This document shows, one piece after another, positions 717 to 5,830 of a stretch of 5,914 bases of DNA. Below the pieces are notes generated by a model that saw only the letters and a program-made list of their open reading frames with translations, had not been told where the DNA came from and ran no database searches. The position numbers and the translations under genes were made by a program. This DNA comes from Candidatus Fermentibacterota bacterium (GTDB lineage Bacteria > JAFGKV01), in contig JAUXFG010000203.1 of NCBI GenBank assembly GCA_030620115.1, positions 1 to 5,914 on the forward strand, written 5' to 3'. Every line of letters begins with the position of its first letter. The stretch's first letter is position 1.

Positions 717-2519
717 ATGACACAGAAAGACAGGCACGACCAGGCCGACGAAAAAGACGGCGCCGTCATCATTGATGACAATGATTCGTCGAGGAGCAGG
801 AACTCGCTCAGGATGCTGAAGTACTCCGGAATTCTCTGTCACTCCATTGCCTATCACTGGAGGCAAGGCACCGCGCCACTTCACATGCTTCGGGAGCTAT
901 CGAAGGCCATCATCCTGCTCTCAAGGTGCGATGTGTTGGAATGGTGGTTGACCCAGAAAGACGGATTCTTCAGGTGCGAGGCAAGGGTTGAGCACGATGG
1001 CAGCCTCACGTGGGACATGGATCAGATTCCCGAGGCCCCTGATGACAGTGAGTCTCTGGAGTCCGGCGGCTTGCAGGAATCGTGTCGACTCTATGGAGAC
1101 ATCATCCAGGGGCGCTGCGATCCAGCACCTGCCAAGTTGACGAAGAGGGGTACGTACTGGTCGTGCAACACACAACTAGGACGAGACTCAAAGTCTCCTG
1201 GGGACGGCACAGGCGGCGGCTATGATCTCAGTGCGGAGGGCTATCTTTCTGTCCTGCTTCTTCTTCTCTGCGACCGGAGAGAGCATGTCGGATTTTTCCT
1301 GCTCAAGAGCAAGACAGAGGATTTTTTCTCACTGGAAATTGTTGAGTTCTTGGAGACCATGGCCGAGAGCCTGGCTATGGCGGTGAGTTCCCATGGCAAG
1401 GAAGCGGAGCTGCGCGAACGAATCAAGGAGCAAGAATGCCTCTATGACGTGCTCCATGTCGCGGAACGGCCGGGGATCAGTCTGGATGAGGCTCTCAAAG
1501 GCATTGCCGGGCTTCTTCCAGCGGCTTGGCAGTATCCTGAGACAGCATCGGCACGGATTGTGTTGGACGAACGGAGCTACAGCACGGGTGGATTCAAGGA
1601 GAGCCCGTTCAGCCAGCGTGCCAACATCATCGTGAGCGGGCGAAAACGTGGATTCATCGAGGTTGTCTATCAGACAGCGCGGCCGGGGCTTCATGGGGGG
1701 CCGTTTCTCCGTGAGGAGCGGAGGCTCATTGACGCGTTGGCCAGAGAAGTGGCGATGATCATCGAGAGGCGCCAGGTGCGAGATGAGAGAATGCACCTGC
1801 AAGAACAGATCAGACATGCGGACCGCCTGGCTACTATCGGGCAGCTTGCCGCAGGAGTGGCTCATGAACTCAATGAGCCGCTGGCCAATGTGCTCGGATT
1901 TGCTCAGCTTGCGCAGAAAAAGGCTCTCTCGGAGGGAGTTCGCGAGGACTTGGCGAAAATCGTTCGTGCGTCTATCCGTGCTCGTGAGATCGTAGGCAAG
2001 CTCAAGCTCTTCGCCAGACAGACGCCGCCCCAGAGAATCGAGACCAACCTGAATGATATAATCGGAGAGGGTCTCGGCTTCCTCCGTACACGGTGCGAGA
2101 GGCAGAAAGTGAAAATCATCGAAGAACTGGATCCTGAGCTTCCCAAGATTGTGGCCGACCCGGGGCAGATGCACCAGGTACTTGTCAATCTTGTGGTGAA
2201 TGCGGTGCAGGCGATGCCTGAGGGCGGAACGCTGACGTTACGAACAAAGACCACAGGCGCCGGGGTCGCACTGATCGTCCAAGATACCGGGGTGGGGATG
2301 ACCGAGGATGTCCGGAGGAAAGTCTTTCAACCCTTCTTTACCACCAAGGGTTTGGATGAGGGAACGGGCCTAGGGTTGTCGGTGGTTCATGGCATTGTCA
2401 TCTCCCATGTCGGCACCATTCGGGTGGAGAGCCGTCCGGGGGAGGGTTCATTGTTCGAGGTTCATCTCCCCATCCAAGACCAAGGAGCCGACTCCGGGAA
2501 CGCCGCGGATCACGCATGA
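717..2519 (+). CDS. Cytoplasmic GAF-type sensor histidine kinase
   Basis: Predicted sensor kinase of 600 aa (605 if GTG 702 is used) for the activator encoded next. No signal peptide or membrane segment is visible, so it should sense a cytoplasmic cue. By eye the order is: a charged N-terminus to about 30; a GAF-like region about 50-225; a second GAF-like sensor module about 241-352, containing LLPAAWQYPE and ARIVLDE; HisKA about 367-435 with phospho-accepting His383 in AHELNEPLANVLG; and HATPase_c about 475-587 with N box Asn495 (NLVVNAVQAM), G1 box Asp523 (DTGVGM), F box (FQPFFTTKG) and G2 box (GTGLGLS, from Gly549). All catalytic boxes are intact. The residue four after His383 is Glu, where many HisKA kinases have Thr or Asn for phosphatase activity. 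The stop overlaps the regulator start (ATGA), showing translational coupling. The family call is firm; the ligand is unknown. Confidence 0.95.
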   Translation: MTQKDRHDQADEKDGAVIIDDNDSSRSRNSLRMLKYSGILCHSIAYHWRQGTAPLHMLRELSKAIILLSRCDVLEWWLTQKDGFFRCEARVEHDGSLTWDMDQIPEAPDDSESLESGGLQESCRLYGDIIQGRCDPAPAKLTKRGTYWSCNTQLGRDSKSPGDGTGGGYDLSAEGYLSVLLLLLCDRREHVGFFLLKSKTEDFFSLEIVEFLETMAESLAMAVSSHGKEAELRERIKEQECLYDVLHVAERPGISLDEALKGIAGLLPAAWQYPETASARIVLDERSYSTGGFKESPFSQRANIIVSGRKRGFIEVVYQTARPGLHGGPFLREERRLIDALAREVAMIIERRQVRDERMHLQEQIRHADRLATIGQLAAGVAHELNEPLANVLGFAQLAQKKALSEGVREDLAKIVRASIRAREIVGKLKLFARQTPPQRIETNLNDIIGEGLGFLRTRCERQKVKIIEELDPELPKIVADPGQMHQVLVNLVVNAVQAMPEGGTLTLRTKTTGAGVALIVQDTGVGMTEDVRRKVFQPFFTTKGLDEGTGLGLSVVHGIVISHVGTIRVESRPGEGSLFEVHLPIQDQGADSGNAADHA

Positions 2520-3868
2520 CCGGCCAGTACCGGATTCTGGCGGTGGATGATTCACCTCCGACCCTCGAAGTGATCCGTAGGAATCTTTCATCCGAGGGCT
2601 ACACGGTTCTTACCGCTTCGTGTGCAGAAGAGGCGATCAAGGTTCTCGATGCGGAGAGGGTTGATCTTGTGATTACCGATCTGAAGATGCCCGGTCCAAG
2701 CGGCTTGGAGCTGATTCGGTACGTTCGGGAGAACCATCCTGACACCGAGATCATGATGGTCACAGGCTATGCCACGGTGGAGGGGGCGGTGGAGGCCGTG
2801 AAGACAGGGGCAAATGAGTACATCGCCAAACCATTTACCGAAAAGGAGCTTCTTTCCGCAGTAGCACGCGTTCTTGAGATGCTGTCGGCGCGACGTCGTG
2901 CCCGATCCCCTCAAGTTGCCGGAGAAGAGGCCCCTACCGGCTTCATCGGGCACTCAACGGTGATGAAGTCGGTGTATCAGGCAATCGGCAAGGCGGCGCG
3001 AACTTCCGCTGCGGTCCTGATAACGGGGGAGAGCGGTACGGGGAAGGAGCTTGTTGCCAGGGCGGTTCATTATGGTGGGCCTCGGGCCGCGGCGTCTTTC
3101 GTTGCGGTGAACTGCGGCGGCATCCCCGAAAGCCTCCTGGAAAGCGAGCTGTTCGGGCATGTGAGGGGAGCATTCACGGGCGCTACCGAAACGAGGGCCG
3201 GCTTCTTTCAGACCGCGGATGGTGGGACCATTTTCCTCGATGAAGTGAGCGAGACGAGCCTTGCCATGCAGGTTAAGCTTCTGCGGGTACTGGAAGAGAA
3301 AGAAGTCCGCATGTTAGGTTCCACACGTTCACAACATGTGAATGTTCGCGTGGTTGCGGCAACAAACAAGGACTTGAGCTCCCAGGTGGCCAAAGGGCAG
3401 TTCCGCGATGACTTGTATTACAGGCTCAATGTGATCGCCATCGACCTGCCCCCGCTACGTGACAGAGGAGACGACATCCTTGTCCTCATCAACCATTTTT
3501 TGCGGAAGTTCGCAGATGAAGCGGAGCGCATGGCTCCTCGCTTCTCGGACGATGCGCTTCGAGTGATCAGGAGCTATCACTGGCCGGGGAATGTCCGCGA
3601 ACTGCAAAACGTGATTCACCGAATGGTGGTTATGATCGATCACGAGCTCATCGATGTCCCGGATCTTCCGTCGCTCATGCGATGCGCCGTTCCCCGGGAA
3701 GCCGGTTTCCGGAGAACGTTGGCGGAGGTCGAGACTGAGTATGTTCGCAATGTACTCGCCAGCGTGAAGGGCAATAAAACGAGAGCTGCCGAGATCCTTG
3801 GTATTGATCGAAAGACCTTGCGTGAGAAGATAAACCGTTCCCGAATGGCCGAAGATATGTCCTCGTAG
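2516..3868 (+). CDS. Sigma-54-dependent NtrC-family response regulator
   Basis: A 450-aa enhancer-binding protein with standard architecture. The receiver (about 5-120) has acidic pocket Asp11/Asp12, phospho-acceptor Asp55, Thr83 and Lys105 in KPF. The AAA+ domain (about 142-380) has Walker A GESGTGKE (171-178), the sigma-54-contacting loop GAFTGA (218-223), Walker B IFLDE (Asp242-Glu243) and WPGNVREL (356-363). A Fis-type DNA-binding end spans about 402-443, with the helix-turn-helix near 423-439. When phosphorylated, such proteins oligomerise at upstream sites and hydrolyse ATP to open sigma-54 promoters. The intact GAFTGA loop argues it is a true sigma-54 activator. It overlaps the kinase gene by 4 bp. 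The likely target is the -24/-12 promoter about 190 bp after its stop. It resembles the AtoC/ZraR/NtrC group, but no specific ortholog can be named from sequence alone. Confidence 0.97.
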
Positions 3869-3870
3869 CG

Positions 3871-3897
3871 GCGCAAGTCTCCAGATGGAGATAGCGC
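3871..3897. promoter_or_regulatory. Interrupted dyad just after the regulator stop
   Basis: TCTCC-AGAT-GGAGA (3878-3891) is nested inside flanking GCGC blocks (3871-3874 and 3894-3897), giving an interrupted stem-loop. It starts 3 bp after the regulator stop. It lies about 199 bp upstream of the predicted start of the next transcript, so it could act as part of a transcription-end structure or as a distal activator site. Confidence 0.3.
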
Positions 3898-3899
3898 AC

Positions 3900-3940
3900 C
3901 GGGGATTTTCTCCCCGCTGGTTCAGAAATCCCCGCTTTCT
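3900..3940 (+). terminator. Possible terminator of the two-component operon
   Basis: CGGGGATTTTCT (3900-3911) can pair with AGAAATCCCCG (3924-3934) with a single bulge and a 12-nt loop, followed by CTTTCT. A competing shorter hairpin, CGGGGA-TTTTC-TCCCCG (3900-3916), uses the same left arm. The trailing T-run is weak (TTTCT), so intrinsic termination may be partial. It separates the kinase-regulator pair from the sigma-54 promoter. Confidence 0.4.
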
Positions 3941-3960
3941 CTAGAGAATTCCAGATTCTC
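3938..3960. promoter_or_regulatory. Candidate activator-binding dyads
   Basis: Two overlapping symmetric sequences: the perfect 10-bp palindrome TCTCTAGAGA (3938-3947) and GAGAAT-TCCAG-ATTCTC (3944-3960), with perfect 6-bp arms. The second is centred about 131 bp before the predicted transcription start at 4083, within the usual range for enhancer sites of NtrC-type activators. No binding motif is known for this regulator, so the role is inferred from symmetry and position. Confidence 0.35.
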
Positions 3961-3991
3961 ATCCCTTCCTCAAAGCACCGGGTTTTCTAGT

Positions 3992-4018
3992 ACGATATCG
4001 TGGCTGTCGTGCATATCG
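3992..4018. promoter_or_regulatory. Candidate enhancer CGATAT-N14-ATATCG
   Basis: CGATAT (3993-3998) and ATATCG (4013-4018) form an inverted pair with half-site centres 20 bp apart, about two helical turns. The left half lies within a perfect 10-bp palindrome, ACGATATCGT (3992-4001). The dyad centre is about 77 bp before the predicted start site. Spacing and symmetry fit a dimeric activator on one DNA face, but this is inference. Confidence 0.35.
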
Positions 4019-4057
4019 AAGCGCGGGAATGCGTCATCGCGGGCTAACGAGTACCGC

Positions 4058-4072
4058 GGCACGCCGCTTGCA
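4058..4072 (+). promoter_or_regulatory. Sigma-54 (-24/-12) promoter
   Basis: GGCACG-CCGC-TTGCA matches the sigma-54 consensus TGGCACG-N4-TTGCA at every position from the -24 GG through the -12 GC; only the T before GG is C. The invariant GG (4058-4059) and GC (4070-4071) have the required spacing. This places transcription start near 4083 and gives a leader of about 34 nt before the TTG start at 4117. The upstream neighbour encodes a sigma-54 activator with intact GAFTGA, which strengthens the call. Confidence 0.88.
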
Positions 4073-4103
4073 AAGCTGATCCCTACAGTCATCATGCTGT
4101 AGC

Positions 4104-4108
4104 GGAGG
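4104..4108 (+). promoter_or_regulatory. Strong RBS supporting a TTG start
   Basis: GGAGG lies 8 nt before the TTG at 4117. No ATG or GTG start in this frame lies between the predicted transcription start and the first cysteine motif, so this Shine-Dalgarno is the main support for the unusual start codon. Confidence 0.75.
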
Positions 4109-4116
4109 AAGCTGCC

Positions 4117-4413
4117 TTGAACGAGGATCACCAAAAGAAAAGCCCGCGCAATCTCTGCGAGGCCTGCCGGCACGCCGGAAGATGCCCGCTCCGAGAGGAA
4201 TCCACGGGCCCCATCGTTTGCTGCGATTGGTTTGCAGTCTCGACCCGTGACAGGGAAAGAGAAGACGATGGCGCTACGGTGAGTATCATAGAGGCGCCTC
4301 CGACCGATCCATTCCGCCAAGGCGAGGGCCTGTGCGCGACGTGTGCGAACCGAAGCATCTGTCCTCGGAGCGCGGTGGAAGGCGGCGTGTGGCGATGCAA
4401 AGACTACTGCTGA
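4117..4413 (+). CDS. Small duplicated four-cysteine (metal-binding?) protein
   Basis: A 98-aa soluble protein read from TTG, without a signal peptide or membrane segment. It consists of two copies of one motif. Copy 1 has Cys14, Cys17, Cys23 and Cys35, ending in CCDWF; copy 2 has Cys73, Cys76, Cys82 and Cys94, ending in CKDYC. The pattern LC-x2-C-x5-CP-x11-C-x-D-(W/Y) has identical spacing in both, so an internal duplication is clear. An acidic, low-cysteine linker (about 40-70) joins them. Four cysteines per unit suggest a zinc knuckle or an Fe-S/redox site; extra cysteines Cys36 and Cys98 could add redox chemistry. I do not recognise a named family, though small proteins with CxxC...CPxx...C-x-(D/E)-(F/Y/W) endings seem familiar from anaerobes. 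It is first behind the sigma-54 promoter and 130 bp before glutamate dehydrogenase, suggesting a shared transcript. Confidence 0.85.
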   Translation: MNEDHQKKSPRNLCEACRHAGRCPLREESTGPIVCCDWFAVSTRDREREDDGATVSIIEAPPTDPFRQGEGLCATCANRSICPRSAVEGGVWRCKDYC

Positions 4414-4543
4414 TGAATCAATGTTGGAGGCATGGGAACGAACCCGAGCCTTCAGTGACGGCGAGGCTGGCGTACTCCTGAGTTCCCGGTGTACGGAGTC
4501 TGGAACTTCCGCCCCATCCGTGTGAGGGGAAAGGAGCGAGGTG
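4414..4543 (+). other. Spacer before glutamate dehydrogenase
   Basis: There is no convincing terminator or second -24/-12 promoter in this 130-bp gap, so read-through from the sigma-54 promoter is likely. A weak imperfect stem can form between GAGTTCC (4480-4486) and GGAACTTC (4502-4509). A GTACTCC heptamer at 4472-4478 matches one half of the dyad at 636-657, possibly by chance. The spacer ends with AAGGAG (4531-4536), 7 nt before the ATG at 4544. Confidence 0.5.
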
Positions 4544-5830
4544 ATGGCAAACGACTCTTTCAATCCCTTTGAGATGGCCCAGCAACAGTTCGATCATGTT
4601 GCTGATGTGTTGGAGCTTGACGAGTCCACGAGGAATCTTCTGCGCGAACCGCTGAGGGAGTACCACTTCAGCATACCGGTCCGGATGGACGACGGCACCG
4701 TTCAGGTCTTCAGGGGTTTCCGCGTACAGCACAATGATGCCCGCGGCCCATGCAAAGGCGGCATTCGTTTCCATCCGCAGGAAACGGCCGACACGGTTCG
4801 CGCTCTCGCCATGTGGATGACATGGAAGTGTGCCGTGGTGGACATACCGCTCGGCGGCGGGAAAGGCGGCGTCATCTGCGATCCGCATAATCTGAGCTTA
4901 GGCGAGCAGGAAAGGCTATGCCGGGGTTGGGTCAGGCAGTTGGCCAGGAATGTCGGGCCTTTGGCTGATGTGCCGGCGCCCGACGTCATGACCAATGCCC
5001 AACACATGCTGTGGATGCTCGATGAGTACGAAACAATCCATGGGAACAAATACCCCGGCTTCATCACGGGCAAGCCGGTGGGCATGGGTGGTTCCCTGGG
5101 GCGGACTGAGGCCACGGGTTTCGGGGTCATCTACACGGTGCGTGAGGCGCTCAAAGAGCTGGGAATCCGCCCTGAAGACACCAGCGTTTCGGTTCAGGGT
5201 TTCGGCAATGTGAGCCAGTACGCCATTCAGCTTTACGAGCAATTGGGCGGCAAGGTTGTGGCTGTTTCATGTTGGGATCAAGGCGATCAGACTTCGTATA
5301 CGTATAGAAAGAAGGATGGTGTCGACCTGGAAGAGCTTCGCGGCATCACGGATCGGTTCGGCGGGATCGACAAGACCAAGGCCGAGACCTGCGGCTACGA
5401 GAGATTGCCCGGTGATGCCTGGATTGAGCAGGATGTCGACATACTCATTCCTTCGGCACTGGAAAACCAGATCAACGCTGAAACGGTCAAGAAGATGAGC
5501 AGACGCGTCAAGATCGTGGCAGAGGGAGCCAATGGTCCTACCACACCCGAAGCGGACCGAGTCCTCAAGGAACGAGGGATCTACGTGATCCCTGATTTCC
5601 TCGCCAATGCAGGTGGTGTCACCTGCAGCTACTTCGAGCAGGTGCAGTGCAATATGAATTATTTCTGGAGCAAGGATGAAGTGCTCGGCAAGCTAGACCA
5701 AAAGATGACCGCAGCTTTCATCGCGGTGAGCGATCTCGCCAGGAGGAAGAAGCTATTCATGCGCGACGCCGCCTATGTCATTGCAATAAGCCGTGTCGCC
5801 AGCGGCTGCAAAGACCGCGGCTGGGTCTAA
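4544..5830 (+). CDS. gdhA: Glutamate dehydrogenase (Glu/Leu/Phe/Val dehydrogenase family)
   Basis: A 428-aa hexameric-type enzyme for glutamate + NAD(P)+ + water to 2-oxoglutarate + ammonia + NAD(P)H, linking nitrogen assimilation or glutamate catabolism to the TCA cycle in the cytoplasm. Conserved residues are Lys71 (GPCKGGIRFHP), Lys95 (MTWKCAVVD), Lys107 (GGGKGG), Asp147 (DVPAPDV) and Ser362 (NAGGVTCSYFE). They match Clostridium symbiosum Lys89, Lys113, Lys125, Asp165 and Ser380 with a constant offset of 18, supporting glutamate as substrate. The Rossmann motif is GFGNV (219-223). The strand following it reads VAVSCWDQGDQTS where VSDSxG is common, so NAD or NADP preference cannot be assigned. 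EQVQ replaces the usual EWVQ after Ser362. ATG 4544 is preferred over GTG 4541 because AAGGAG is 7 nt upstream. The gene is complete and probably co-transcribed with the cysteine-rich gene. Confidence 0.96.
   Translation: MANDSFNPFEMAQQQFDHVADVLELDESTRNLLREPLREYHFSIPVRMDDGTVQVFRGFRVQHNDARGPCKGGIRFHPQETADTVRALAMWMTWKCAVVDIPLGGGKGGVICDPHNLSLGEQERLCRGWVRQLARNVGPLADVPAPDVMTNAQHMLWMLDEYETIHGNKYPGFITGKPVGMGGSLGRTEATGFGVIYTVREALKELGIRPEDTSVSVQGFGNVSQYAIQLYEQLGGKVVAVSCWDQGDQTSYTYRKKDGVDLEELRGITDRFGGIDKTKAETCGYERLPGDAWIEQDVDILIPSALENQINAETVKKMSRRVKIVAEGANGPTTPEADRVLKERGIYVIPDFLANAGGVTCSYFEQVQCNMNYFWSKDEVLGKLDQKMTAAFIAVSDLARRKKLFMRDAAYVIAISRVASGCKDRGWV

Follow-up and report, generated by a model that had tools for sequence, protein, structure and literature searches.

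The window, a stretch of 5,914 nt that forms the whole of contig G000:C174 in a 4.1-Mb draft genome, encodes a sensor kinase (HK), an NtrC-type response regulator (RR), a small cysteine-rich protein (Cys) and a glutamate dehydrogenase (GDH). We read these parts, with a probability of roughly 0.86, as a two-component σ54 switch that is dedicated to oxidoreductases forming glutamate and would run from a conserved operator to the Cys-GDH operon. The order kinase, regulator, 36-bp element, −24/−12 promoter and then Cys-GDH or Cys-NuoE is found in several phyla, and the switch recurs in many distantly related, mostly uncultured bacteria. It would supply an operator, a regulator and a target for a circuit in several largely uncultured phyla, where almost no regulon is known. 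The features of the window are as follows.

702-2519, + strand: HK, soluble sensor histidine kinase (Pfam HisKA/HATPase_c)
2516-3868, + strand: RR, NtrC-type response regulator (Pfam Response_reg, Sigma54_activat, HTH_8)
3899-3934, + strand: putative RR operator/enhancer, the 36-bp element (leave-one-out PWM)
4057-4072, + strand: predicted σ54 −24/−12 promoter, CGGCACGCCGCTTGCA (10/11 match; rpoN in genome)
4117-4413, + strand: duplicated four-cysteine protein, 98 aa (ORF; no match in Pfam, NCBIfam or PDB)
4541-5830, + strand: GDH, ELFV family (Pfam PF00208/PF02812)

Open reading frames and Pfam domains recover all four genes of the initial annotation at these positions. The HK and RR genes overlap by 4 bp. 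The Cys ORF starts with TTG, preceded by GGAGG, and within the GDH ORF the ATG at 4544 is the likelier start. Repeat-like DNA of the dispersed-repeat type lies 5′ of the kinase; it includes an inverted repeat with arms of 35 nt (131-165/197-231) and a direct repeat of 46 nt (91-136/292-337).

In the proposed circuit, modelled on what is established for σ54 activators, the cytoplasmic tandem-GAF kinase would sense a small-molecule or redox cue and phosphorylate the activator at D55. Activator dimers would then bind two tandem 17-bp dyads at 3899-3934 and, by ATP-driven looping, contact σ54-RNA polymerase 122 bp downstream, and transcription of the Cys-GDH operon would begin near 4083.

Kinase and activator

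The input region of the kinase is predicted to consist of two GAF domains. GAF-like 1 covers ~aa 30-235 and GAF-like 2, with a WQYP motif, ~aa 245-365; the C-terminal part holds HisKA with H388 and then HATPase_c. H388 is invariant among kinase homologs, and the linker ERxKExxCLY (aa 239-248) is conserved. The AF2 model of the input region is a tandem GAF (pLDDT 84.5) whose best Foldseek matches are GAF-containing phytochrome and PDE domains, and GAF is detected in 31 of 49 kinase homologs. No transmembrane segment is predicted in the kinase, in agreement with the dedicated soluble GAF-type kinase first proposed.

The second GAF domain (WQYP type; window 1440-1770, L074 11350-11850) is shared with the N-terminus of PpsA-like (PEP synthase-like) proteins; aligned with one of them by hhalign, it gives a probability of 99.5% at 30% identity. 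Such proteins are encoded just 3′ of GDH in many phyla, and a PpsA-like ORF similar to the kinase lies at most 5.5 kb downstream of GDH at 45 of 80 GDH loci (L026-L105). The kinase and the PpsA-like enzyme may thus read the same ligand, with GAF 2 and the PpsA-like protein perhaps sensing one common metabolite.

The regulator carries a receiver (D55), an AAA+ σ54-activating domain with GAFTGA (3167-3184) and a Fis-type HTH, which is the domain composition of NtrC. It scores under the NtrC equivalog cut-offs (420.9 vs 558.6 and 340 vs 620 bits for TIGR01818/NF008176) and under that of ZraR, and its receiver excludes the RocR type, an activator without this domain. The kinase is likewise not of the NtrB type (NF008293; 118 bits vs a cut-off of 240), having GAF rather than PAS input. 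The best general family scores are those of AtoC for the regulator (426 bits) and AtoS for the kinase (228 bits), and neither protein reaches the curated cut-off (714 and 646 bits, respectively).

Orthologs of the regulator, at 50-67% identity and 458-646 bits, occur in several phyla; paralogs in its own genome score at most 401 bits. Orthologs are present in 15 of 386 broadly sampled genomes (own genome included), in 6 of 30 GDH-bearing genomes and in 49 of the 132 genomes covered from the phylum of G084 (Zixibacteria). The 80 nearest GDH homologs were rejected as the sole frame of comparison and the regulator was preferred as the probe, because the full regulator is linked to GDH only in L074 and L080 among them; the element exceeds 10 bits at three of these loci (L073, L074, L080). 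Our first locus set comprises the 52 loci with a regulator above 500 bits, window included, and the second set another 14. A kinase gene lies 5′ of the regulator gene in 49/52 and 14/14 loci, respectively. One group of RR paralogs (L202, L203 and L204; 458-488 bits to the window regulator) has neither element nor Cys gene and was set aside; a PpsA-like gene comes after the regulator here, together with a response-regulator-like gene, as read in the sequence of L202.

Promoter and 36-bp element

The −24/−12 promoter that the initial annotation placed before the small gene, CGGCACGCCGCTTGCA at 4057-4072, departs from TGGCACN5TTGCW at a single position and is the sole match with 0-1 mismatch in the window. 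It shows the σ54 features of GG at −24, GC at −12 and 10-bp spacing, and rpoN is present in the genome (PF04552 at G000:C249, 201 bits). Transcription is predicted to start at about 4082-4084, leaving a leader of about 33 bases before the GGAGG-TTG start. Since two-mismatch sites are expected by chance (3 found in the window vs 2.95 expected) and the one-mismatch site is single, the window site by itself is only suggestive. It becomes convincing because it is conserved across related loci: a site of at least 9/11 lies at most 420 bp after the RR stop in 34 of 56, compared with 1 of 56 controls from coding sequence and 2.9% of dinucleotide shuffles. No recognisable −24/−12 site follows the regulator gene in about 40% of the loci.

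Comparison of intergenic regions also reveals a conserved 36-bp element (consensus CCGGGGAATTTCTCCCCGGTGGTTCAAAATTCCCCA), which is absent from the initial annotation. The element is composed of two tandem 17-bp dyads of the CGGGGA-N5-TCCCCG type, 18 bp apart centre to centre, an arrangement that two Fis-type HTH dimers could occupy. In the window the dyads occupy 3900-3916 (CGGGGATTTTCTCCCCG) and 3918-3934; the second is imperfect yet conserved across loci. The window element (3899-3934) scores 44.8 bits with a leave-one-out PWM, against a shuffled maximum of 11.1, and a genome-wide pattern search finds it as a single site in G000. The same search over 46 genomes returns mostly one site each, and the reversed control pattern gives 2 matches in all. 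The element ends 122 bp upstream of the −24/−12 site in the window and mostly 120-190 bp upstream in other loci. Among the 52 loci of the first set, 40 have both element and Cys gene, 4 the element only, none the Cys gene only and 8 neither.

The element is also found where the regulator and its putative target are apart. In six genomes (G176, G177, G201, G205, G152 and G129) the regulator gene has no adjacent element, and the element instead precedes a Cys-GDH or Cys-NuoE operon elsewhere. A −24/−12 site lies 142-154 bp downstream of the distant element in the first five, and none was called there in G129. G164 has a further target with element and −24/−12 site; with it included, the site lies 142-167 bp downstream of every distant element except that of G129. 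Where the Cys operon is duplicated (L182, L188 and L195), every copy carries an element of its own. In G420 the RR and Cys genes are on different contigs, the latter with the element and an 11/11 promoter, and in G434, a genome in which the regulator was not detected, the element precedes Cys-GDH. Element and promoter therefore mark the target, since both travel with the Cys operon where the regulator is separate.

In most loci the element begins 0-40 bp beyond the RR stop codon, and it is G+C-rich and palindromic. It might therefore be taken for a terminator or RNA structure that belongs to the HK-RR operon and has nothing to do with the Cys promoter. We rejected this as highly improbable, because the element moves with the Cys operon, missing after regulator genes whose Cys operon is distant and present before that operon, and because no T-tract terminator is called at the element. 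The conservation of the imperfect second dyad and the near-constant distance to −24 also argue against a terminator. A one-mismatch site is modest evidence within the window alone, so that one could further ascribe the adjacency to passive descent of the block and the promoter match to chance. That account is scarcely credible when promoter, element and spacing are conserved across phyla and the element moves with unlinked targets. The regulatory link from kinase and activator to Cys and GDH, originally drawn from adjacency and promoter class, is now strongly supported by co-occurrence, element, promoter and target tracking across genomes.

Putative target operons and the cysteine-rich protein

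Both ELFV domains of the window GDH score above the gathering threshold (PF02812, 186.8 bits; PF00208, 240.9 bits), and its homologs in named genomes are 71-82% identical. L074 (Chitinispirillaceae) has the same order of kinase, regulator, Cys and GDH as the window. With the element included, this order is seen in L151/L074, L156, L162, L164, L165, L167, L178, L195, L266, L269 and L271, among others, and all of the loci listed except L195 have a −24/−12 site. The comparison of gene order suggested in the initial annotation thus bears it out: the four genes co-occur with the site in other genomes, and the arrangement is not limited to its own genome, the case that had been named as refuting. 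Two GDH subfamilies lie behind the same module, one of the window kind (>760 bits in L151 and L155) and the other, at about 340 bits, in Zixibacteria and others.

GDH, the target initially named, is not the sole one; an operon of the NuoE type is commoner. This alternative operon encodes NuoE, a 1065-aa NuoF-GltD fusion, a NuoG-N-like Fe-S protein and a glutamate-synthase-like FMN protein (PF01645), and is a candidate NADH-linked, perhaps bifurcating, glutamate synthase. It is conserved together with Cys at L185 (4782-11471) and similar loci. A rare third target is an NDH-2 gene behind the element and Cys (L159, and L161 by position only). NDH-2 was rejected as a general target where the element lies elsewhere. 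With targets other than GDH, what stays constant is the Cys gene together with an enzyme linked to glutamate or NAD(P)H, and the common threads of the targets are glutamate formation and NAD(P)H.

The two-component system could accordingly be viewed as a regulator of redox or NAD(P)H instead of glutamate or nitrogen, with GDH as one of several NAD(P)H-linked targets. Among the targets are modules of the NuoE/NuoF type with relatives in the electron-bifurcating Stn/Nso complexes (PMC7483475), an NDH-2 gene follows the element and Cys in L159/L161, and a Cys-rich partner would suit redox. The NuoE operon, however, also carries GltD-like and glutamate-synthase (PF01645) parts, making glutamate common to most targets, and the NDH-2 genes beside the regulator in L157, L163 and L169 lack the element and are probably not targets. 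We take a redox regulator seriously without favouring it, and retain the glutamate-directed switch as our reading.

The switch need not control this GDH: the sister genomes G001 and G002, of the same family and the only others of the phylum in the comparison, have a GDH 82% identical to that of the window, and the RR ortholog, Cys and an element before GDH are all absent from them. With GDH present and the circuit absent, they were rejected as a source of conservation. A second GDH-like gene, 37% identical, lies in the window's own genome (G000:C200:44765-45922). Nor is Cys indispensable, since GDH in Cloacimonadota (L155/L080, L073) has element and promoter without a Cys gene; in L080 and L073 these lie 213 and 46-49 bp upstream of the GDH open frame. 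The L073 region (2018-2197) has the element and a −24/−12-like site spaced as in L080, with no adjacent RR or Cys gene.

The Cys protein comprises two 4-Cys units, as first described, and all eight cysteines are invariant among 38 homologs. Its AF2 model has a pLDDT of 58, and the predicted fold is not confident. The family occurs in 18 of 386 genomes, covering all 15 with the regulator and 3 of the 371 others (Fisher p=2e-24, shared ancestry ignored); the 15 RR genomes span 14 different family labels. At 40 of the 52 first-set loci and 10 of the 14 second-set loci, a Cys gene lies no more than 700 bp beyond the regulator gene; 2 further loci of the second set have a Cys unit fused to GDH. In-frame fusions join a single Cys unit to GDH (L259 and L260) or to NuoE (L156, L237, L238 and L241). 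Because the same module is fused to both, the likeliest role of the Cys protein is that of a small accessory module, binding metal or Fe-S, for the enzyme made with it. The fusions point to a physical partner of GDH and NuoE alike, and the cysteines suggest the binding of a metal or Fe-S cluster. This 8-Cys family may thus represent a new accessory module shared by two glutamate-linked enzymes that are themselves unrelated.

If Cys were not an enzyme partner but a feedback sensor or modulator acting on the kinase or the activator, this would fit its almost perfect co-occurrence with the regulator and its absence from the targets in L155 and L201. We consider such a role unlikely, as the Cys fusions are to GDH and NuoE, and as Cys lies beside a GDH-like or NuoE gene without element or regulator in L282 and L285. 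Returning to the accessory module, one possible, if doubtful, extension is that Cys acts in several phyla as a redox-responsive metal/Fe-S subunit through which the redox state of the cell is coupled to GDH or to a bifurcation-type NADH glutamate synthase. The Cys subunit, dissociable or fused, would then close a feedback loop on the GAF kinase.

Comparison with known systems

Apart from the Cys family, which is unannotated, all parts of the module belong to known kinds. The module, its operator, the target link and the Cys family are not described in the papers searched, among which few subscription journals were covered. AtoSC and ZraSR are similar in giving the best general family scores and in the local control of an adjacent operon, whereas the input domains and targets of the window system differ.

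RocR of Bacillus subtilis is not a two-component response regulator, and the enhancer of rocG reportedly lies downstream of the gene. The Bacillus system, which has no Cys partner, is similar in that a σ54-type promoter (SigL) and an enhancer-binding activator, RocR, control a GDH gene, rocG, according to the part of PMC3162934 that cites Belitsky and Sonenshein (1999). COG0334 (GDH) is also among the σ54-regulated groups in Bacillota (PMC12316311). The link between σ54 and GDH alone is therefore not new.

The alternative target operon shares NuoE-, NuoF-, GltD- and NuoG-like parts with the electron-bifurcating Sporomusa-type Nfn (StnABC) and Nso complexes (PMC7483475). In the target operon, known here from sequence alone, NuoF and the GltD-like part instead form one fused protein, NuoG-N stands alone and there is an additional glutamate-synthase-like FMN protein.

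NtrBC (GlnL/GlnG) shares a soluble kinase, an NtrC-type activator, a 17-bp dyad enhancer upstream of a σ54 promoter and nitrogen/glutamate targets with the window system. In enteric bacteria, too, NtrB is a cytoplasmic kinase whose gene lies next to that of NtrC, and the contrast with classical NtrC control drawn in the initial annotation was overstated on this point. The contrast holds for the tandem GAF input, the G/C-rich CGGGGA-N5-TCCCCG operator and the very small local regulon of essentially one or two targets per genome. Glutamate formation would here be placed under a dedicated local σ54 switch rather than a global nitrogen system.
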